Shown piece by piece: positions 285 through 30,477 of a stretch of DNA of 35,476 nt. The DNA is from an uncultured Acidimicrobiaceae bacterium (lineage in GTDB: Bacteria; Actinomycetota; Acidimicrobiia; Acidimicrobiales; Ilumatobacteraceae), in the NCBI GenBank assembly GCA_903919455.1, contig CAIXIJ010000075.1, positions 1-35,476 of the forward strand, given 5' to 3'. The notes beneath the pieces were generated by a model. It did no database searches, was not told where the DNA came from, and was given only the letters and a program-made list of their open reading frames with translations. The translations under genes were made by a program, and so were the position numbers. How positions within the stretch are numbered: position 1 is the first letter of the stretch; each line of letters starts with the position of its first letter.

Positions 285-2000
285 TCAGAGGTATTGGCCG
301 GTGGCCACGCGTTCGATGGCTCGGCCGCCCTCGCGGTCGGCCACGTCGTGGCCCTTCACCAGAGTACGGATGAAGACGATGCGCTCACCCTTCTTGCCGC
401 TGATCTTCGCCCAGTCGTCGGGGTTCGTCGTGTTCGGCAGATCCTCGTGTTCCTTGTACTCCTGCCGAATGGATGCGAGCAGATCCTGCAGGCACACGCC
501 ACGCTCGCCACCAGCGATGACACGCTTGATCGCTAGCTTCTTGGCACGACGGACGATGTTTTCGATCATGGCTCCCGAAGAGAAGTCCTTGAAGTACAGG
601 ATCTCTTTGTCGCCGTTCTGGTAGGTCACCTCGAGGAATTGGTTCGCCTCATCGGTGCGGTACATCTCGGCGACAGTGGTGCGGATCATGTCGGGCACGC
701 TGGCGCCCACCGCGATCGGAATCTCGTCGGTGAGATAGCGAGCAAAGATCTGCTCTGCGGCGGCCTCGGTGGGTCGCTCGATCTTGATCTTCACGTCGAG
801 GCGGCCCGGGCGCAGGATTGCCGGGTCGATGAGATCCTCCCGGTTCGTGGCACCGATGACGATGACGTTGCGAAGACCCTCCACTCCGTCGATCTCGGCC
901 AGCAACTGCGGCACGATGGTGCTCTCCATGTCGCTGCTGATGCCCGAGCCGCGAGTTCGGAACATGGAGTCCATCTCGTCGAAGAAGACGATGACAGGCC
1001 AGCCCTCTTCGCTCTTCTCGCGGGCTCGTTGAAACACCAGACGGATTTGCCGCTCGGTCTCGCCCACGTACTTGTTGAGCAGTTCGGGGCCCTTGATATT
1101 GATGAAGTAGCTGCGACCCTTCTCGCCGCCGGTCTTCTCCGCAACCTTCTTCGCCAGCGAGTTGGCCACTGCCTTTGCAATCAGGGTCTTGCCACAGCCG
1201 GGAGGGCCGTACAGCAGGATGCCCTTCGGTGCCGGCAGTTGATGTTCGGCGAACAGATCGCTGTAGAGGAACGGCAACTCCACGGCGTCGGCGATCTCCT
1301 CGATCTGGGTGTCGAGCCCCCCAATGTCGGTGTAGCTGATGTCGGGCACTTCCTCGAGCAGCAGGTCTTCCACCTCCGGACGCGGCAACTTCTCGAGGAG
1401 CAGGTTGCTCCGCGGGTCGAGTCGCATGGTGTCGCCGCTGCGCAGGTGCGTTCCGCGCAGGGCATCAGCCAGTTCGCACACCCGTTCCTCATCGGCCCGG
1501 CCCACCACCATCGCCCGCACGCCGTCGTCCATGATCTCCTTGATGGTGACCACCTCGCCCACCACTTCGGGCTGACGGGCGTGCACCACGTTGAAGCTCT
1601 CGTTCAGCACCACTTCGGCGCCACGCGGCAGGCTCTCGTGATCCACATCGGGGTGCAGGCTGACGCGCATCTTGCGTCCGCTGGTGAGCACATCCACCGT
1701 GCCATCGTCGTTCTTGCCCACCACCACGCCGTAGGCGGCGGGTGGCTGGCTGAGCTTGTCGACCTCGTCGCGCAGGGTGGCAATGTGTTCGCGCGCCTCG
1801 CGCAGCGTGTAACTGAGCTTCTCGTTCTGCGAGACCGCATGGGACAACTGTCCTTTGGTCTCCAGGAGTCGCTCCTCCAGGGCTCGCTGGCGCTTTGGCG
1901 CCTCGACGAGCTTTTGGCGTAGTTGGGTGACTTCCTCTTCCAGGATCGCCATGTTCGCCTGGACGAGCGCATCCTGCTCGGCGTCGTGTGCGTCGCTCAT
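285..2000 (-). CDS. arc: Proteasome-associated AAA+ ATPase ARC/Mpa
   Basis: Ring ATPase that recognises Pup-tagged proteins, unfolds them and feeds them to the bacterial 20S proteasome in the cytoplasm. The 571 residues show the family order: an N-terminal coiled coil (about 15-85), tandem OB-fold region (about 88-205) and one AAA module. Walker A is GPPGCGKT (265-272), Walker B ends FFDEMD with D341/E342, sensor 1 is ATN (384-386) and an arginine-finger region RPGRLD follows (397-402). The C-terminus is GQYL, the penultimate-tyrosine tail that docks ARC/Mpa into the proteasome alpha ring. The ATG at 2000 has a TAGGTT box 6 nt upstream, suggesting a leaderless mRNA. Neither pup, dop nor prcBA lies next to it here, but trmI is nearby as in mycobacteria. 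Confidence 0.96.
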
Positions 2001-2006
2001 GTGAGG

Positions 2007-2012
2007 AACCTA
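2007..2012 (-). promoter_or_regulatory. Putative -10 box of arc (leaderless type)
   Basis: On the minus strand TAGGTT ends 6 nt before the arc ATG at 2000. A TANNNT hexamer at this distance is the usual arrangement of actinobacterial leaderless transcripts, and there is no Shine-Dalgarno sequence in the gap. No convincing -35 element was seen. The start site is inferred, not measured. Confidence 0.5.
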
Positions 2013-2107
2013 ACACCGCCCTGCAACACGATCACCGACACATCTCGGCGAAACTAGGTAACGGCGAATATGCCTGTGTATGCTCCTCGTGTCTCATCCG
2101 GATTACC

Positions 2108-2113
2108 AAGGAG
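2108..2113 (+). promoter_or_regulatory. Ribosome binding site deciding the ferredoxin start
   Basis: AAGGAG lies 10 nt before the ATG at 2124. The nearer ATG at 2116 is out of frame, and the in-frame ATG at 2070 lies upstream of this site in sequence without a family counterpart. This fixes the ferredoxin start at 2124 and shows that this gene, unlike arc, is leadered. Confidence 0.65.
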
Positions 2114-2123
2114 CTATGACGAG

Positions 2124-2369
2124 ATGAAGGTCTGGATCGATCAGGATCTGTGCACGGGTGACGGTCTCTGCGAAGAGATTGCTCCCGACGTCTTCACGCT
2201 GCTCGACGATGGCCTGGCCTACGTCAAGGAGGGCGACAAGGTGTACGCCACCGCCAAGGGTCTCCCCCAGGGAGCCGATGGATTGGCTGGTTTCCCCGAT
2301 AGCCGCCTCGACGCGGTCATCGAAAGCGCCGAGGAGTGCCCCGGCGAGTGCATCTTCATCGAGCCCTGA
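2124..2369 (+). CDS. Small single-cluster ferredoxin (3Fe-4S/4Fe-4S type)
   Basis: An 81-residue acidic soluble ferredoxin. It begins MKVWIDQDLCTGDGLC, with the first cysteines spaced C-x5-C, and ends in EECPGECIFIEP, where the CP pair supplies the last cluster ligand. Only three cluster cysteines fit the usual single-cluster pattern, the second position of the motif being Asp (CTGDGLC), so a 3Fe-4S cluster is likely. Such ferredoxins commonly feed electrons to cytochromes P450 or other oxygenases; the partner is not visible here. It is transcribed divergently from arc and is followed by a strong hairpin. A ferredoxin beside arc and trmI may be a conserved actinobacterial arrangement, which I state from memory only. 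Confidence 0.88.
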   Translation: MKVWIDQDLCTGDGLCEEIAPDVFTLLDDGLAYVKEGDKVYATAKGLPQGADGLAGFPDSRLDAVIESAEECPGECIFIEP

Positions 2370-2394
2370 GCCCGATCTGAGCAACACGAACTGA

Positions 2395-2422
2395 ACGAAG
2401 GCGGCCTGCGGGCCGCCTTCGT
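2395..2422. terminator. Bidirectional hairpin terminator between ferredoxin and trmI
   Basis: A perfect 12-bp stem (2395-2406 with 2411-2422) closes a TGCG loop. It lies between two convergent genes, 25 bases after the ferredoxin stop and 33 bases after the end of trmI. The U-tract is weak on the + strand (GTCGCGTTCT), so efficiency is uncertain, but symmetry allows it to serve both strands. Confidence 0.75.
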
Positions 2423-2455
2423 CGCGTTCTGCCCTTCGTTCGGGTCAGCGTTCGC

Positions 2456-3226
2456 TCAGCCGAGGAAACGACCAACCGTGAGGAATCCGGTGTGGGCGAC
2501 CATGCGGTGGTCCGGCCGCACGGCCTGGCCCTCGATGTGCCAACCACGATGCAGCACCTCGAGAGTACGAGTGCCACTCCAGGCCCTGTTGGCCATAGCG
2601 TCGCGGGTCTGCGCCGCTTGGGTGATGGACGGCGTGTAGGCCACCAGAATGCCGCCAGGACGGAGCGCCTCCATTGCGTGAGGCACTACCTGCCACGGCT
2701 CGGGCAGATCGAGGACCACGCGGTCGAGATCGCGCTCGTCGATGCCCTCGTAGCAATCGCGAAGATGAAGGTCGTACCTGTCGAGCACCTCTTCGCCGAG
2801 AAAGCTCTTCACATTGGCTCGAGCCCGATTGAGAAAGTCCTCACGGAGCTCGTAGCCGATGATGTGTGCCCCGTACCGGAGCATGGTCATGCTGAGTGCG
2901 CCAGAACCCACGCCGCTCTCCAACACCCGGACGCCGGGCCCGATGTCGGCGAGCATGCAGATGGGAGCAAGGTCCTTCGGGTAGATCACCTGAGCGCCAC
3001 GAGGCATCTCCAGCACAAAATCTTCCAGCGTCGGGCGCATCAGAATGTACGACGCCCCTCTGGTGCTCTTCATGGTGACACCTTCGGGCTTGCCCACCAC
3101 GTCGGCGTGTGGAAACAGACCCGCATGGGTGTGGAACTCTGCGCCTTCGGCCAGCGTGATGAGGTATCGACGCTGTTTGTTGTCCAGCACCAACACCTTG
3201 TCGCCGTAATCGAACGGACGGTTCAT
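2456..3226 (-). CDS. trmI: tRNA (adenine-58-N1)-methyltransferase TrmI
   Basis: Uses S-adenosylmethionine to methylate N1 of A58 in the tRNA T-loop, acting as a tetramer. The 256 residues give the family order: a small N-terminal beta domain (1-75), then a Rossmann fold with SAM motif I VLESGVGSG (101-109) and the catalytic-region motif LDLPEPW (172-178). The ATG at 3226 was chosen because it forms an ATGA overlap with the stop of the upstream tRNA thiolase gene, implying translational coupling. The longer reading frame to 3349 runs inside that gene. It is the last gene of the nine-gene operon. In Thermus the m1A58 mark promotes thiolation of U54, which makes the neighbour meaningful. Confidence 0.95.
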   Translation of the reverse strand: MNRPFDYGDKVLVLDNKQRRYLITLAEGAEFHTHAGLFPHADVVGKPEGVTMKSTRGASYILMRPTLEDFVLEMPRGAQVIYPKDLAPICMLADIGPGVRVLESGVGSGALSMTMLRYGAHIIGYELREDFLNRARANVKSFLGEEVLDRYDLHLRDCYEGIDERDLDRVVLDLPEPWQVVPHAMEALRPGGILVAYTPSITQAAQTRDAMANRAWSGTRTLEVLHRGWHIEGQAVRPDHRMVAHTGFLTVGRFLG

Positions 3227-4191
3227 CGACGTCGTCTCCCCTTGCTCAGGACCAGTTCCACCGGTACCGGTTCGTGCGCTCGCGCCTTCTCCGCAGTACG
3301 GCAGAAGGCGCACAGGTCGCTGGTAGTGGGTGCGCCGCACGAGGTGCACGTACCAAGTTCATCGGTGGCAGCTGCAGACCGTTCAGCCAGCAACGGCGCC
3401 ATGTTGTCGAGGAAGTTCAAGTAGAAGGAAGCCTTGGCCCCCGACGACTGCTGCTCGATCGCGTTCAGCGCAGCCTTGTAGGCCAGATGCTTGTTGCCCA
3501 CCGCCATCGGGCATTCGTCCACCAGATAGTCGATGCCCCGCACGATGCACCACGCAGCCATCTCGCGCTCGGTGAGTCGAATGAGCGGCTTCACCTTCTT
3601 CGGGAAACCGTTGCGTGCTGGCAGCACCGGCAATTGCCGAGAGAGGTATTCCACGTCCCAGCGCAGCGTGTTCCCAAACAGCACCGCAGCCTCATCGTCG
3701 AGGTTGTGACCGGTGACGAGCACGGTGTAGCCACCGTCGAGCGCCGCCTTGTCGAACAGGTGCCGTTTGCTGGTGCCGCAGGCGCTGCACGGCACGCGCC
3801 GGGTGGCCTTCGCCGCGGTGGGAATGTCGTAGCCATACTCCGAGCGAAGGTCGATGGTGATGAGACGCAGACCGCGCTCGTCCGCAAAGCTCTTTGCGTA
3901 CTCCCCCGAGACATCGCTGTACTCGCCGATACCGAGACCGATATAGAGACCATCGGCCTGATAGCCGAGCTCGACCAAAATGTCCCAGACGGCGAGGCTG
4001 TCCTTCCCGCCCGACACTGCAACAAGTACACGGTCGTCCTTGGAAAGCATGTCGAACTTCTCGATGGCCTTCACCACCTGCCGGCGGCACAACTCCAAGA
4101 AGTGCTCGGCGCAGAAATTTGCGTTGTGACGCGGCAGATCGATGATGGCCGGCTCTTTGCAGACCCGGCATTTGGAGGCGGGCGCAACCAC
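3223..4191 (-). CDS. ttuA: TtuA/TtcA-family tRNA 2-thiolation enzyme (PP-loop ATPase)
   Basis: Predicted to adenylate a tRNA uridine and replace its 2-oxygen with sulfur. The 322 residues show the TtuA layout. An N-terminal zinc finger has C8, C11, C27 and H30; the PP-loop is SGGKDS (60-65); C135-x2-C138 and C227 match in spacing the three cysteines that hold the 4Fe-4S cluster in Thermus TtuA. A C-terminal zinc finger has C282, C285, C294 and C297. It starts with GTG at 4191, sharing one base with the stop of the upstream TtuB-like gene, and overlaps trmI by 4 nt. The neighbours (ubiquitin-like carrier, TrmI) favour TtuA acting at position 54 over TtcA (C32) or NcsA (U34). The exact nucleotide is inference. 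Confidence 0.87.
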   Translation of the reverse strand: MVAPASKCRVCKEPAIIDLPRHNANFCAEHFLELCRRQVVKAIEKFDMLSKDDRVLVAVSGGKDSLAVWDILVELGYQADGLYIGLGIGEYSDVSGEYAKSFADERGLRLITIDLRSEYGYDIPTAAKATRRVPCSACGTSKRHLFDKAALDGGYTVLVTGHNLDDEAAVLFGNTLRWDVEYLSRQLPVLPARNGFPKKVKPLIRLTEREMAAWCIVRGIDYLVDECPMAVGNKHLAYKAALNAIEQQSSGAKASFYLNFLDNMAPLLAERSAAATDELGTCTSCGAPTTSDLCAFCRTAEKARAHEPVPVELVLSKGRRRR

Positions 4192-24751: not shown

Positions 24752-26140
24752 ATGCAGAAATCCCAGATGCGCCGCGCAAGCGCATTGCTCGTGGGCCTGA
24801 CGCTCGTCGTCGCGGCCTGCGGCTCTGACAGCAGCGAGGGCGGCGCAACCACCGCCGCTACCCAGACCACCGCCGCTACGGAGACCACGGCCGCCGTGGA
24901 AACCACAGCCGCTACGGAGACCACCGTTGCCGCTGGCGGCGACGAGCTCAAGGGCATGAAGGGCACCACGCCGCTCGTGAAGCTGAGCGACGACTTCAAG
25001 ACCGCCCTGCAGGGCACGCCGTCGGGCAAAGGTCTCACCGACTACAACTACGCTGGCGAGACCTACGACGCCATCGTCACCATTGCTCTGGCCGCGGAGA
25101 TCGCCAAGACGGATGGCTCGGCCATGGCCGACCAGATCGTCGGCGTCACCAAGGACGGCGAGAAGTGCACCGACTTCAAGAGCTGCCTCGACATCATCAA
25201 GGCTGACGGCGACCCCGACTATGACGGTCAGTCCGGCCCCATCACGATGAACGGCAACGGCGAGCCCCTCGAGGCCAGCTACGGCATCCTCACCTTCGGT
25301 GCGGGCAACCACCTCGACGACGCGCTCACCACCTACGTCACCGCCTCGGCCCCCGAGTCGGCTGTGAAGCCGCTCACCACCACCGATGTGAAGCGCGACG
25401 GCGACGGCGTGCTCAAGCTCGGCGGCCTCCTGCCCCAGACCGGTTCGCTGGCCTTCCTCGGCGCTCCCGAATTCGCTGGCGCTGAGCTGGCAGTGGCGGA
25501 GATCAACGCTGCCGGTGGCGTGCTGGGCAAGCCGATCGAGTGGTCGCCCGGCGACTCCGGCGACACCAGCACCGACATCGCCAGCCAGACGTCTGACCGT
25601 CTGCTCGGCGAGGGCGTGGATGCCATCATCGGCGCCGCTTCCTCCTCGGTCACCCTCACCGTCATCGACAAGATCACGGCCGCTGGCGTGGTGATGTACT
25701 CGCCCGCCAACACGTCGCTGAAGCTCGTTGACTACCCGGACCACAGCCTGTACTTCCGTGACGCCCCGCCGGACGACCTCCAGGGCAACGTCATCGCCCA
25801 GCTCGTGGTCGACGACGGCAACCAGTCGGCCTACATCCTGGCCCTCGACGACGCCTATGGCACCAGCCTGGCCGACGTGATTGAAGCCGGCCTGAAGGCT
25901 GCTGGCGTGGACGTGCTCGGCAATAAGATCTACGACCCCAAGGCGACGAGCTTCGACGCCGAAGTGGACGAGATTGCTGCAGCCGACCCGGATGCCATCA
26001 TCCTCATCACCTTCGACGAGGGTTCGCGAATCCTCAAGACGATGGTGGAGAAGGGCGTCGGCCCGAGCGCCAAGGCCGTCTACGGCTGCGATGGCAACAT
26101 CGGCAACGCACTCGGCGACAACTTCAACGCCGGCAAGTAA
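24752..26140 (+). CDS. Branched-chain-amino-acid-type ABC transporter substrate-binding lipoprotein, circularly permuted
   Basis: Extracytoplasmic solute receptor for the neighbouring Liv-type transporter. 462 residues: signal peptide with lipobox VVAAC (C23), Thr/Ala linker (24-65), then a block (about 66-205: LKGMKGTTPLVKLSDD, DYNYAGETYDAIV, SGPITMNGNGEP, SYGILTFGAGN) that forms the C-terminal end of canonical LivK-type proteins. A linker (206-219) leads to the canonical N-terminal start (VLKLGGLLPQTGSLAFLG) and the rest of the fold, ending GNALGDNFNAGK. Canonical proteins continue from that point into the LKGMKG block, so the order is circularly permuted. Total length is normal and no domain is lost. 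KCTDFKSC (C139, C145) may form a disulfide. Ligand unknown. RBS GGGGGAG supports the ATG at 24752. Confidence 0.9.
   Translation: MQKSQMRRASALLVGLTLVVAACGSDSSEGGATTAATQTTAATETTAAVETTAATETTVAAGGDELKGMKGTTPLVKLSDDFKTALQGTPSGKGLTDYNYAGETYDAIVTIALAAEIAKTDGSAMADQIVGVTKDGEKCTDFKSCLDIIKADGDPDYDGQSGPITMNGNGEPLEASYGILTFGAGNHLDDALTTYVTASAPESAVKPLTTTDVKRDGDGVLKLGGLLPQTGSLAFLGAPEFAGAELAVAEINAAGGVLGKPIEWSPGDSGDTSTDIASQTSDRLLGEGVDAIIGAASSSVTLTVIDKITAAGVVMYSPANTSLKLVDYPDHSLYFRDAPPDDLQGNVIAQLVVDDGNQSAYILALDDAYGTSLADVIEAGLKAAGVDVLGNKIYDPKATSFDAEVDEIAAADPDAIILITFDEGSRILKTMVEKGVGPSAKAVYGCDGNIGNALGDNFNAGK
24845..24934 (+). repeat. In-gene Thr/Ala-rich linker repeat
   Basis: Encodes residues 32-61 of the binding lipoprotein, repeats of the form TTAAT-E/Q built from near-identical ACC GCC GCT ACG GAG units. 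It is a flexible spacer between the lipid anchor and the binding domain, typical of actinobacterial lipoproteins, and not a separate genetic element. Confidence 0.7.
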
Positions 26141-26173: not shown

Positions 26174-26213
26174 GAAGGCCCCGGGCTTCGGCCCGGGGCC
26201 TTCCTCGTTTTCC
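26174..26213 (+). terminator. Strong intrinsic terminator of the binding-protein gene
   Basis: A perfect 13-bp GC-rich stem (26174-26186 with 26191-26203) with a stable TTCG tetraloop, followed by CTCGTTTT. Clear Rho-independent form, 34 bases after the stop codon. Confidence 0.92.
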
Positions 26214-26286: not shown

Positions 26287-27036
26287 TCAGCCGCCGGTGG
26301 CCTTGGCCAGCGTGCCGAGGTAGAGCTCGATCACAGCGGGATCGGCGAGCAACTCGCGCCCCGAACCCGTGTAGGCGTTGGTGCCCTGGTCGAGCACATA
26401 GCCGCGGTCAACCACTTGCAGGCACCGGCGAGCGTTCTGCTCCACCATCAAGATGGCCACGCCGGTGTTGTTGATCGCGCGGCAGTTGAGGAACACCTCG
26501 TCCTGCAGGTGCGGCGAGAGACCGGCCGACGGCTCGTCGAGCAACAGCAGCGACGGCTCGAGCATCAATGCCCGACTCATGGCCACCATCTGGCGCTCGC
26601 CGCCCGACAGCGAGCCCGCACGCGAGTCCTTGCGCTGCAGTAGCCGCGGGAACAGTTCGGTGACGTAGGCGAAGCGCTGCTTGAACACCTTCGGACGCAA
26701 GTAGCAGCCCATCTCGAGGTTCTCCACGACCGTGAGGCTGGGGAACACGTTCTTGGTCTGCGGCACATAGCCAACGCCGCGGCTCACTAGCTCGTGGGCC
26801 TTCTTGCCGGTGATGTCGGCACCGTTGAGCAGCACGTTGCCCGAGCGCACGGTGCACTGACCAAGCACAGCCTTCAGCATGGTGGACTTGCCGGCGCCGT
26901 TGGGGCCGATGATGCCCACGAACTCCCCCGGGTTCACCACGAGGTTGCATCCGTCGAGGATGTTCACTTCCGGGATGTAGCCGGCCACCAACTCGGTTGC
27001 CAGCAGGACGGGCTGCGTGCCCTCGATGATGGTCAC
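26287..27036 (-). CDS. livF: Branched-chain amino acid-type ABC transporter ATP-binding protein (LivF)
   Basis: One of two cytoplasmic ATPases powering the transporter. 249 residues: Walker A GPNGAGKST (44-52), Q-loop region VGYVPQTKNVFPSLTV, signature SLSGGERQM, Walker B LLLLDEPSAGLSP and a switch region EQNARR where the usual switch His is Asn-flanked, as is common in LivF. GTG start at 27036 overlaps the livG stop as GTGA. Last gene of the operon, followed by a hairpin terminator. Confidence 0.94.
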   Translation of the reverse strand: MTIIEGTQPVLLATELVAGYIPEVNILDGCNLVVNPGEFVGIIGPNGAGKSTMLKAVLGQCTVRSGNVLLNGADITGKKAHELVSRGVGYVPQTKNVFPSLTVVENLEMGCYLRPKVFKQRFAYVTELFPRLLQRKDSRAGSLSGGERQMVAMSRALMLEPSLLLLDEPSAGLSPHLQDEVFLNCRAINNTGVAILMVEQNARRCLQVVDRGYVLDQGTNAYTGSGRELLADPAVIELYLGTLAKATGG

Positions 27037-27908
27037 ATGTCCTCCAGAAGACTTTTGCCCTGATGAGCGCCAAGGTAGGCATCGATCACCGCAGGGTTCG
27101 ACGAGATCTGATCGGGAGTGCCTTCGGCAATGATCATGCCTTCGGCCATCACGATCACCCAGTCGGAGATGTCGTGGACCATGTCCATGTCGTGCTCCAC
27201 GAACAGCACCGTCATGCCCTCGTCGCGCAGCCCCTTGATGTGCTGGTTGAGGCTTTGCTTCAGCGCTGGGTTCACGCCGGCCATCGGCTCGTCGAGCATC
27301 ACCAGCTTCGGATTCGTCATCAGCGCTCGCGACATCTCGAGCAACTTGCGTTGTCCGCCCGACAAGGTGCCCGCGTACTCGTTGCGCATGTGATCGAGCT
27401 TGAAGCGGGCCAGCAGCGCGTCGGCGCGGGCTTCGATCTCACGTTCCTGGGCCATCCAGGTGAACGGCAGCAAACCGTTCCACCACTTCTCGCCCTTCTG
27501 ACCGGTGGCACCGAGCTTCATGTTCTCGATGACCGACATTTTCGTGAGGCTCTTGGTGAGCTGGAACGTGCGCACCATGCCCATATCGGCCGTCTTGTGC
27601 GCCTGCACACCCTCGAGGTCTTTGCCGTCGAACCACCACTTGCCGGTGTCGGGCGTGTCGAACGCCGTCATCAGGTTGAAGAAGGTGGTCTTTCCAGCAC
27701 CGTTAGGACCGATGAGCGCCGTGATCGAGCCGCGCTGGATCTCCACTCGCTCCACGTCGACGGCGGTGATACCACCGAACGACCGGCGCACTCCTTCGGC
27801 AGTCATGATGGGGTCGGGCTTGGCGACGCCAGGTTCCGGGGCAACATTGGCGAGAGCCGCACGTGCAATGCGAGCGGTCTCGCTGAGGGTTTGCTCGTCA
27901 GCGGCCAT
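27033..27908 (-). CDS. livG: Branched-chain amino acid-type ABC transporter ATP-binding protein (LivG)
   Basis: Second ATPase of the transporter. 291 residues: Walker A GPNGAGKTT, RTFQLTKSLTKMSV Q-loop, signature TLSGGQRKL, Walker B LVMLDEPMAGVNP, and switch His in VEHDMDMVHD. A roughly 33-residue N-terminal extension (SETARIARAALANVAPEPG) precedes the usual start; it is Ala-rich and likely helical, function unknown. Overlaps the livM end by 11 bases and livF by 4. Confidence 0.94.
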   Translation of the reverse strand: MAADEQTLSETARIARAALANVAPEPGVAKPDPIMTAEGVRRSFGGITAVDVERVEIQRGSITALIGPNGAGKTTFFNLMTAFDTPDTGKWWFDGKDLEGVQAHKTADMGMVRTFQLTKSLTKMSVIENMKLGATGQKGEKWWNGLLPFTWMAQEREIEARADALLARFKLDHMRNEYAGTLSGGQRKLLEMSRALMTNPKLVMLDEPMAGVNPALKQSLNQHIKGLRDEGMTVLFVEHDMDMVHDISDWVIVMAEGMIIAEGTPDQISSNPAVIDAYLGAHQGKSLLEDM

Positions 27909-29094
27909 CGAGCGCCATCTCCTTCTTGTTGCCGAACAGGCCCTGCGGCCTGAACACCATCAGGAACACCAGCATGAGACCGATGACCACCTGCACGTAC
28001 ACACCGATGTGGCTGGACTCGGTGATGAGCGGAATGCCAAAGATGTCGACGTGACCGCCCCAGCTCTTGGTGAGCTCGTTGAGGAATGCGTCAACGAACG
28101 ACAGGATGCCCCAGAACAGCATGGGGCCGACGATGGAACCAGAGACCTTGGCGAGACCGCCGAGCACCAACGCTGTGAGCACGTAGAACGTGACATCACG
28201 GCTGTAGTTGTCGGGCTGCACCGAGCCTCGGCTCACCGAGAACATGATGCCCGAGAACGTGGCGATGACGCCGCCGAGGATAAGCGCCTGCAGCTTGTAC
28301 GAGTACACGTTCTTGCCCAAGCTGCGAACGGCGTCCTCATCTTCACGGATGCCCTTGATCACACGGCCCCAGGGGCTGCGCATGAGCATGTAGATGAACC
28401 CGGCGATGATTGCCGCAAGGATCCAGCCCACCACGAGGCTCTTGAACGACAGACCGTCGTACTCTGTCTGCTTCGAAGCGACCAGGAGGAAGACCATCAC
28501 TGCTACGCCGCAGATGATCCACTTGCTCTGAAAGCCTTGGCGCTCTTCCTTCGCCCACTTCTGCGCCAGCATGTGGCCAAGCAGCACCGAGCACACTGCG
28601 AAGGAAACCAGCAGGAGCACGGCGCCGATGGCGTTCACGCTGTCGGAGAACGGGTACAGCGAGTACTTCGATGAGGGGTTGAACGGCGTTCTGTTCACGA
28701 ACGAGTTCGCGAACTGGTTGATGCCGTCGGAGCCACCGAAGTACTTCTTGAACGTCACCGAGCGCACAATGAGCCGCACACACTCGGCGAGCGCGATGGT
28801 GACGATGGCCAGATAGTCGGCTCTCAGACGCAGCGTGGGTACGCCCATGATGAGGCCGAAGATCACGGCATACACCACGGCGATGGGGATGCCCCACCAG
28901 AAGCTGATGCCGTAGTAGTGGGCGGTCATGCCCACGGCGTATGCGCCGCAGGCCATGAACCCGGCTTGGCCGAAGTTCAGCAACCCTGCGTAGCCGAACT
29001 GCACGTTCAGGCCGATTGCCGACAGTGCGAAGTACATCGCGTTCACACCGAAGAAGGCGCTCAGCGTTGCGGAGAAGATGTTGCTCCAGTTCAT
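27898..29094 (-). CDS. livM: Branched-chain amino acid-type ABC transporter permease (LivM)
   Basis: Inner-membrane permease, 398 residues, about ten hydrophobic helices. FGYAGLLNFGQAGFMACGAY is the family signature near the N-terminus, and the cytoplasmic coupling loop reads SPWGRVIKGIREDEDAVRSL. The C-terminus MVFRPQGLFGNKKE is typical. An extracytoplasmic or loop insertion rich in Asn, Phe and Ser (VNRTPFNPSSKYSLYPF) sits about residues 130-150. Lies 9 bases after livH and overlaps livG by 11. Confidence 0.93.
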   Translation of the reverse strand: MNWSNIFSATLSAFFGVNAMYFALSAIGLNVQFGYAGLLNFGQAGFMACGAYAVGMTAHYYGISFWWGIPIAVVYAVIFGLIMGVPTLRLRADYLAIVTIALAECVRLIVRSVTFKKYFGGSDGINQFANSFVNRTPFNPSSKYSLYPFSDSVNAIGAVLLLVSFAVCSVLLGHMLAQKWAKEERQGFQSKWIICGVAVMVFLLVASKQTEYDGLSFKSLVVGWILAAIIAGFIYMLMRSPWGRVIKGIREDEDAVRSLGKNVYSYKLQALILGGVIATFSGIMFSVSRGSVQPDNYSRDVTFYVLTALVLGGLAKVSGSIVGPMLFWGILSFVDAFLNELTKSWGGHVDIFGIPLITESSHIGVYVQVVIGLMLVFLMVFRPQGLFGNKKEMALDGR

Positions 29095-29103
29095 CGGTCC
29101 TCC

Positions 29104-30456
29104 TCAGCCCACTCGCTCACGACGACCGAGGATGCCCTGCGGCCGCACCAACAACACGATGATCATGGCGACGTAAGCCGGCACGTTCTTCAGTTCGGAC
29201 GGCACGCCGTTGTGCAACCAGTCGAGCGGAGCGGGCCAGTTCTTGCCCGGCATGATGGGGATGCCCAACGTGCTCACTTCCACGAACAGGCCGATCACGA
29301 AGCTACCCACGAGGGCGCCGTAGGCCGAGCCGAGACCGCCGAGCGTGATACCGGCGAACATCAGGAACAGCAGATCGGAGCCGATGAACGGGCCCACACC
29401 TTCGTCGAGGCCGCGGAAGATGCCGCCGGTTGCGGCGAGCATGCCGCCCAGGATCCAGACCAGGCGGATGATCTTCTGGCTGTCGATACCGGTGCTGGAG
29501 GCCAGGTCGGGGTTGTCGCTCACCGCTCGGGTTGCCTTGCCGAGCCGCGTCTTCTGCAGCGCCAGCGCCACGCACACCAAAATGATGAGCGAGATGAACG
29601 CCGTGGTGGCGTCACGCGGCGTGACGCAGATTGGGCCGACCCGCTTGCAGTCCTGGTTGTTGAACGCTGCGAAGGTCTTCGTGCGACCGCCCAGGATGCG
29701 CAGGAAGACGTTCTTCAACACGATGGCCACGCCGACGGTGACCACCATTTGCGACACCAAGCCGATCTTGCGTTTGCGTAGCGGCGAGTAGATGAACTCG
29801 TTTTGTGCAAGGCCAAAGGCCCCGCCGGCGATGATGGCAACAGGGAACGCCAACCACGGCGTGATGGCGCGATCGGTGTTGAGGATGTAGGCGATCATGG
29901 CGCCAAAGGTGACCAACTCGCCGTGAGCGAAGTTGGTGAGTCCCGTGGTGCCGAAGATGAGGCTGAGACCGACAGCGCACATCGCGAGGATGAGTCCGAA
30001 GCGAGCTCCGTCGGCGAGTCGCTGAGCGAACTGCGACCACCACCCCACCGTGGCCCGGTTGGCTGCACCCGTGAAGTAGTTCACCGTCACGGTAGAGGTC
30101 ACGAAGGCGGCGCCCTGCACCTGGCGCTCAGCATCACCTTCCTGCAGCGCAAAGCCGTCGGGAAGCGTCGACTCATCGAGCGTGACGGTGTAGTCGGCCT
30201 TGGCCGGCAGCGTGATCAGGGCCACGCCCTTGGCATCGGTGACACCCTCGCCGACCGAGGCGCCTGACGCATCGGCGACGACGACCTTGACACCGGCGAC
30301 CGGCTCCTTCTTCGTCTTGCCGCCTGCGTCCTGCACCTGGTTCTGGACACGAACCTTCACAGCGAGATCGTCGGCGTGGGCCGGCTCAGCGAACATGCCG
30401 AACACGGCAAGGCCCACCAGCAGCAGTGCGACGAAGTGTTGTAGTCGTTTCTTCAA
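29104..30456 (-). CDS. livH: LivH-type permease with N-terminal signal peptide and extracytoplasmic beta-sandwich-like domain
   Basis: Permease partner of LivM. About 450 residues. A signal-like segment (9-25, VALLLVGLAVFG) ends in AHADD. Residues 31-125 resemble a Cna-B or carboxypeptidase-regulatory fold (EPVAGVKVVVADASG, GVTDAKGVALITLP, YTVTLDESTLPDGF). The LivH core follows from about residue 150, with GLSLIFGTTGLTNFAHGE and the coupling loop KATRAVSDNPDLASSTG. Canonical LivH is about 300 residues and lacks the first 130. The TTG at 30456 was chosen for its AGGGGA ribosome binding site and because it begins exactly at a MKKRLQ-type signal; a GTG at 30474 is an alternative. First gene of livHMGF. 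Confidence 0.87.
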   Translation of the reverse strand: MKKRLQHFVALLLVGLAVFGMFAEPAHADDLAVKVRVQNQVQDAGGKTKKEPVAGVKVVVADASGASVGEGVTDAKGVALITLPAKADYTVTLDESTLPDGFALQEGDAERQVQGAAFVTSTVTVNYFTGAANRATVGWWSQFAQRLADGARFGLILAMCAVGLSLIFGTTGLTNFAHGELVTFGAMIAYILNTDRAITPWLAFPVAIIAGGAFGLAQNEFIYSPLRKRKIGLVSQMVVTVGVAIVLKNVFLRILGGRTKTFAAFNNQDCKRVGPICVTPRDATTAFISLIILVCVALALQKTRLGKATRAVSDNPDLASSTGIDSQKIIRLVWILGGMLAATGGIFRGLDEGVGPFIGSDLLFLMFAGITLGGLGSAYGALVGSFVIGLFVEVSTLGIPIMPGKNWPAPLDWLHNGVPSELKNVPAYVAMIIVLLVRPQGILGRRERVG

Positions 30457-30477
30457 CTGGTCCCCTGGGTTCACCCG

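Follow-up and report, generated by a model that had tools for sequence, protein, structure and literature searches.

Does a gene in which the C-terminal part of a LivK-type binding protein precedes the N-terminal part encode a genuine circular permutation, and if so, how often and by which route did this order arise? The question is raised by one gene in the window, the whole stretch of 35,476 nucleotides from an uncultured Acidimicrobiaceae bacterium that was analysed here. Descriptions of natural circular permutation mostly concern one-off, ancient events.

Gene and block layout

Translation confirmed that the gene is a single intact frame of 462 residues at 24752–26140 on the forward strand. 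The block boundaries of the preliminary description, at residues 66, 205, 220 and 462, all hold on alignment to profiles and PDB chains. The features of the gene are as follows:

24752–26140, forward strand: circularly permuted LivK-type solute-binding lipoprotein, 462 residues (reading frame, block and profile searches)
24752–24820, forward strand: signal peptide and lipobox up to Cys23 (VAAC), read from the sequence
24821–24946, forward strand: low-complexity Thr/Ala/Glu tether, residues 24–65 (sequence; AlphaFold pLDDT below 50 for residues 1–58)
24947–25366, forward strand: canonical C-terminal block, now first, residues 66–205, LKGMKGT...TASAPESAV (block HMMs, profiles)
25367–25408, forward strand: new linker between the old termini, residues 206–219, 14 residues (comparison with relatives)
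25409–26137, forward strand: canonical N-terminal block, now last, residues 220–462, VLKLGG...NFNAGK (profiles, structure match)
26090–26092, forward strand: Asp447 of YGxDG, aligned with an acidic residue of PDB 4gnr
26174–26203, forward strand: terminator-like hairpin of 13 pairs between convergent genes (hairpin search)

The hairpin agrees with the terminator that had been proposed 3' of the gene; the search found two overlapping terminator-like sites, against a mean of 1.1 in shuffled sequence. Within the N block, the motifs GAASSS (residue 294), SPANTS (317) and YGxDG (444, including Asp447) align with 4gnr. We take these three to be ligand-contact motifs, and the position of Asp447 presumably has the ligand role known from LivJ/LivK structures.

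The two blocks stand in crossed order

When the whole protein was searched, the Pfam Peripla_BP_6 match was limited to residues 221–445, corresponding to profile positions 2–224 of 343. The blocks were then aligned separately to LivK-type profiles, and their order was found to be crossed. The N block (220–462) alone matched Peripla_BP_6 2–224 of 343 with 132 bits against a cut-off of 31.7 (E 5e-38), while the C block (66–205) alone matched positions 246–349 of 353 of ANF_receptor, a weak match (E 0.003) below the family cut-off. The same crossing was seen on PDB 4gnr, where residues 220–451 of the unaltered query align with chain positions 7–233 and residues 76–140 with 258–320, the latter alone not being significant.

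After the blocks had been restored to the canonical order, a single stretch covered Peripla_BP_6 2–311, ANF_receptor 6–349 and 4gnr 8–320, with modest gains in score (69.8 to 78.6 bits for 4gnr, 67.8 to 73.2 for ANF_receptor and 129 to 132 for Peripla_BP_6). The cut falls after about 243 of the 383 re-ordered residues. Block HMMs likewise gave the order N-C in close relatives and C-N in the window protein. Because the profile positions of the separate blocks cross and re-ordering yields single long matches, the crossed order is real. The window gene thus encodes a naturally circularly permuted LivK-type binding protein with the C block before the N block, as had been claimed from the sequence.

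Compared with LivJ/LivK-type proteins (Peripla_BP_6/PF13458, HAAT; PDB 4gnr, 3ipc, 4n0q, 3td9), the window protein is alike in both block families, in the lipobox and in its livFGMH neighbours, and the predicted fold of its N block is also similar. It differs in having the C-terminal third first and a new linker joining the old ends. Canonical relatives (e.g., L028, L029 and L046–L049) are 47–60% identical by blocks and have the order N-C; the C block is homologous to the canonical C blocks of these six loci at 47–55% identity.

The permuted order recurs in separately assembled genomes

Block searches of related genomes found the C-N order in 16 of 61 relatives (45 had any match) and, at a threshold of E ≤ 1e-40, in 19 of 397 genomes sampled from the order (88 gave a match of some kind), which span eight family codes (f1, f3, f9, f13, f19, f40, f41 and f46). 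These counts are per genome searched. The loci themselves were chosen for matching the permuted query, so shares among loci are not frequencies. A search of named genomes returned 25 loci, four of them permuted (L042, L043, L044 and L045). The closest permuted orthologue, L013/L042, is about 96–97% identical (96% being the best segment of L042), and permuted relatives reach down to about 43% identity (L027). L013 and L042 are one gene, as are L015 and L044. The C-terminal end lies at the identical aligned residue in 32 of 33 rows of the main permuted clade, the exception (L023) being truncated by the contig end. The linker terminates in an R-x-G-[DN]-G motif in 31 of these 33 rows (exceptions L027 and L081). 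In L081 (1393–2850), both blocks are intact but the linker region lies in another frame, rich in Ser and Arg, which points to a compensating pair of frameshifts or to errors of sequencing.

These data bear on two simpler explanations. Since the draft genome that contains the window consists of 150 contigs, an error of assembly or binning might be suspected, with a misjoin near 24947 or 25409 having scrambled a canonical gene. However, the C-N order is found in many separately assembled genomes, including that of the orthologue at about 97% and others at 43–75% identity, the C-terminal end is fixed at one aligned position in the main clade as described above, and genes with a second cut point (class II, below) are present in genomes assembled as one contig and in the finished chromosome NZ_CP073721.1. 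Misassembly is therefore rejected, with next to no probability left to it, and the earlier judgement that the gene is neither broken nor misassembled stands. Alternatively, the gene could be a decaying, non-functional rearranged copy with the real binding protein encoded elsewhere, and the genome does have other LivK-like genes. Leader-only matches apart, these are at most 36% identical, so that the genome contains no closer canonical copy; furthermore, the frames are intact, the neighbouring operon is conserved, and dN/dS for the whole gene is 0.16–0.27 in five pairs, which shows that the gene is under purifying selection. A decaying copy thus deserves very little credence.

Adjacent Liv importer genes and probable function

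The binding-protein gene is convergent to a livFGMH cluster at 26287–30474 on the reverse strand, in which we take gene order to distinguish LivF from LivG:

26287–27036, reverse strand: LivF-type ATPase (PF00005; synteny)
27033–27908, reverse strand: LivG-type ATPase (PF00005, PF12399; synteny)
27898–29094, reverse strand: LivM-type permease (PF02653; synteny)
29104–30474, reverse strand: LivH-type permease with an extra N-terminal region resembling a beta domain (PF02653; PF11974 and PF13620 below cut-off)

Among loci with flanking sequence, this convergent arrangement with livFGMH was seen at 21 of 26 permuted loci (L151 and L152 are divergent; L128, L129 and L153 have no Liv genes in the flank) and at 13 of 17 canonical loci (the genes are on the same strand in L144 and L147; the flanks of L061 and L143 show no Liv genes). 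Canonical relatives in other Actinomycetota share this convergent layout with the permuted ones where wide flanks were read. Since the position relative to livFGMH is conserved and the genome has no closer canonical copy, the permuted protein most likely corresponds by synteny to the canonical binding protein. We consider it very probable that the adjacent LivHMGF-type importer uses this protein, with its circularly permuted Type I (Venus-flytrap) domain, as its lipid-anchored substrate-binding protein. Judging from the conservation of its motifs, it would most likely function as a lipid-anchored receptor for an aliphatic amino acid or similar compound, delivering it to LivHM.

The LivH-type permease (29104–30474, reverse strand) is extended at its N-terminus: a signal-like segment is followed by about 120–150 additional residues, for which the beta-sandwich families bMG3 and CarboxypepD_reg gave matches below cut-off. 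BLAST matches in many relatives, canonical as well as permuted, begin within this extra region.

Predicted structure

AlphaFold2 models were obtained for the window protein (pLDDT 83.6, pTM 0.81; residues 1–58 form a low-confidence segment) and for L045, a permuted protein with a different cut point (pLDDT 85.3, pTM 0.85). VIA-align superposed residues 219–462 of the window model on residues 1–241 of 3ipc (Z 19.7, rmsd 2.7, 239 aligned), so that the last part of the chain corresponds to the first part of the canonical LivK-type fold, as the preliminary description had led one to expect. For the L045 model, residues 226–453 were superposed on 3ipc 1–220 (Z 17.5, rmsd 2.3, 218 aligned). The ends of the two models differ by about 21 residues on 3ipc, as predicted by the two cut points. 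Matches in the sequential structure search are nearly confined to the N block (218–462; 225–454 for L045), and the fold of the swapped block therefore rests on the model and the sequence.

By analogy with the LivJ topology, which we take as our guide, we infer the positions of the lobes, a fourth inter-lobe connection and a tether placed beside the hinge. The chain would start on the C-lobe side of the returning hinge strand, run through the remaining N-lobe to the old C-terminus and then pass through the 14-residue linker, which would form the additional inter-lobe connection. The canonical first two thirds would follow, ending in the C-lobe. Accordingly placed, the lipid tether would enter beside the hinge and not at the first N-lobe strand. 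With the cleft and the amino-acid-binding positions presumably kept, the protein should still close on its ligand, which may be a branched-chain or other aliphatic amino acid or a related compound, and would dock on LivHM.

A second cut point and further permuted groups

Permuted proteins are also present elsewhere in Actinomycetota, and they fall into two classes with cut points about 21 residues apart. Class I, the main type to which the window protein belongs, ends in GNALGxxFDAGK and starts with LxGMKGT. Class II, represented by L098/L153 (G612), ends in ADAGVPIRH and starts with VRLYGTDGNM...LVDGMKGT; L045 ends in KQGIGPNS and starts with PLYLVDGNLGN...LEGVKGT. Asp447, near the C-terminus of the window protein, is near the mature N-terminus in the other cut class.

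With the L153 protein as query, matches were obtained in 121 of 200 genomes of one family at E ≤ 1e-50. Block order was read in 40 of these loci (L181–L200 and L226–L245), the remainder being matches alone, and all 40 are C-N with like ends. One of them, L226, lies on the finished chromosome of Dactylosporangium roseum (NZ_CP073721.1), the record also behind L051, and the class II family appears to be of Micromonosporaceae type. At four loci (L153, L226, L227 and L232), no Liv-like genes were found within 5–9 kb of the class II gene; its products may therefore be orphan binding proteins. LivHMGF-like genes are likewise missing from the flanks of L128 and L129, which means that a neighbouring Liv importer is not a constant feature. 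In L153, an enoyl-CoA hydratase-like gene adjoins the class II binding-protein gene.

A third group, L091/L092, comes from two genomes of one genus and has a class I-like cut with a linker of its own. Its family, f75, gave matches in 20 of 35 genomes, and the 18 loci other than L091/L092 are all N-C. The linkers differ among the four permuted groups. L128 (4828–6369) and L129 (469–1902) form a very divergent permuted pair in which the acidic YGxDG motif is lost; both genomes also carry a main-clade copy.

Number of origins and route of permutation

On a quick tree with 122 rows, four changes of the permuted label are needed, and starred branches force three of them. A more careful tree of 88 rows needs three changes for the C-N rows, with a 5–95% range of 3–3 and a single permuted group in 0% of 200 bootstrap trees. 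It places 29 rows in the main permuted clade (support 100/98), L091/L092 with the canonical L090 (100/99) and L045 inside canonical rows (99/85). This tree omits 34 of the 122 rows: four are the long-branched permuted L128, L129, L027 and L098, and most of the remaining 30 are near-copies or far outgroups. Although permuted, L128 and L129 are too divergent to be placed, and L079, its copy in L121 and one half of L126 were dropped as partial. A second careful tree of 85 rows, made up of 61 of the 88 rows, 20 added class II rows and 4 canonical rows, shows four separate permuted groups.

A single origin followed by returns to the canonical order in several lineages would be an alternative to repeated permutation. 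In AU tests, however, one clade of all permuted rows of the 88-row tree was rejected (p 4e-63). The other groupings tested, which were named after a first tree had been seen and were confined to four pairings, gave p 2.8e-4 for the main clade with L091/L092, 0.0024 for the main clade with L045 and 0.008 for class II with L045, all standing against a single origin, while the pairing of class II with the main clade was not rejected (p 0.164), so that these two may be one clade. Moreover, a return would require a second exact permutation, and the differing linkers of the four groups also argue against common descent of the permuted order. A single origin is thus very unlikely. The trees and AU tests appear to require at least three independent origins; because the main clade and class II could be united without rejection, a fourth is favoured but not forced.

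As for the route, the preliminary description had proposed duplication of an ancestral gene followed by loss of the outer parts. Block hits were obtained in 175 distinct binding-protein frames: 89 are N-C, 78 C-N, 6 N-C-N-C and 2 N only, and no frame has the form C-N-C or N-C-N. The six N-C-N-C frames (L122–L127) come from as many genomes of family f35, and that of L126 is cut off by the end of its contig. These proteins share the domain family but carry two copies per chain and occupy a separate part of the tree. Their genes adjoin one or two further N-C binding-protein genes and lie beside livFGMH in L122–L125, whereas the roughly 4 kb of flank read on that side of L127 contain no Liv genes. 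Separate binding-protein genes in tandem were seen as well, two N-C genes in L066 and two C-N genes in L121; the latter (1–999 and 1031–4000, G210) stand beside livFGMH, the first running off the contig. The proposal thus gains from the fusions and tandem genes in relatives, while its direct evidence for the main clade, an N-C-N-C or N-C-N ancestor, was not found among these frames. Since the fused genes are not sisters of the permuted clade, they show that the step happens, and their separate tree position does not support them as direct ancestors of the main clade. Tandem duplication would be followed by in-frame fusion to N-C-N-C and then by loss of the outer N and C blocks. This permutation would have taken place at least three times in the family, with new ends within a common stretch of about 20 residues in the groups read.

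Instead of both blocks descending from one duplicated gene, domain shuffling could have brought in the C block from a different binding protein, making the permuted protein a chimera. Some room for this is left by the N-block quick tree, which needs two changes for the main clade, one of them forced, and in which class II, L045 and 12 canonical rows form a group at 96; in addition, trees cannot separate the copies of one recent duplication from a single gene. Yet L090 is the canonical row nearest to L091 in the quick trees of both blocks, L099 and L100 are among the three rows nearest to L045 in both, and the main clade is whole in the C-block tree. The block trees, quick trees with few columns for the C block, thus disfavour a chimera of two paralogues, and we regard this origin as highly improbable.

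A bolder reading, which we hold to be probable, combines three to five independent permutations across Actinomycetota with ends that converge on a stretch of about 20 residues, the site being a structural weak point. The candidate origins under this joint reading are the main clade in the taxonomic order of the window, the f75 pair, L045, the Micromonosporaceae-type family and possibly L128/L129. The convergent stretch would lie between the strand of the ligand-binding Asp and the hinge strand, and tandem and fused-duplicate forms persist at the corresponding locus in relatives. If this holds, the site lets the Type I fold be reopened without functional loss.

Relation to other binding proteins

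TpMglB-2 (Tp0684) of Treponema pallidum (PDB 5JX2), a lipoprotein of the sugar-binding MglB type, is an earlier published instance of natural permutation among Type I binding proteins. In its report (PMC4990184), TpMglB-2 is described as a naturally occurring circular permutant of the Type I/Cluster B binding proteins in which the first three strands, up to residue 65 of EcMglB, have been moved, with the cut after the third N-lobe strand and both termini in the N-lobe. The report also describes a fourth inter-lobe cross-over and relatives in Gram-positive bacteria, proposes the name 'Type Ic' ('Cluster Bc'), and suggests that the topology arose as an adaptation to anchoring (PMC4990184).

The window protein resembles TpMglB-2 in being a permuted Type I lipoprotein with, by our analogy, a fourth inter-lobe crossing. 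In contrast to TpMglB-2, it is LivK-like, its cut lies about two thirds along the canonical chain, and both of its termini would be in or at the C-lobe (PMC4990184 for TpMglB-2). Entry 5JX2 was absent from the PDB sequence matches of the window protein at E 0.001 and from the best 50 structure matches of the window and L045 models, and no report of a permuted LivK-type binding protein was found in the open-licence PMC literature. The new elements thus appear to be the family, the cut position and the recurrence. A lipobox-like pattern was found in 109 of 113 C-N and 123 of 131 N-C open frames (not de-duplicated). Because such motifs are about equally common in both orders, adaptation to anchoring is not favoured as the reason for the permutation here.

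The permutation is a real, inherited change of protein layout, and a single family offers several such changes together with canonical relatives at about 47–60% identity, conserved synteny, different cuts and fused duplicates. Sister proteins make the duplication-and-trimming route and the naturally accepted cut points directly testable, and for sensor design the cut points to a naturally accepted opening site in LivK-type binding proteins. For annotation, the Pfam profile catches the N block only and misses the C block. As a minor observation on the records, the binding protein of L053, titled as a Bifidobacterium breve MAG, is near-identical to that of L065 from an Ilumatobacteraceae MAG, and the title of the L053 record is probably wrong.
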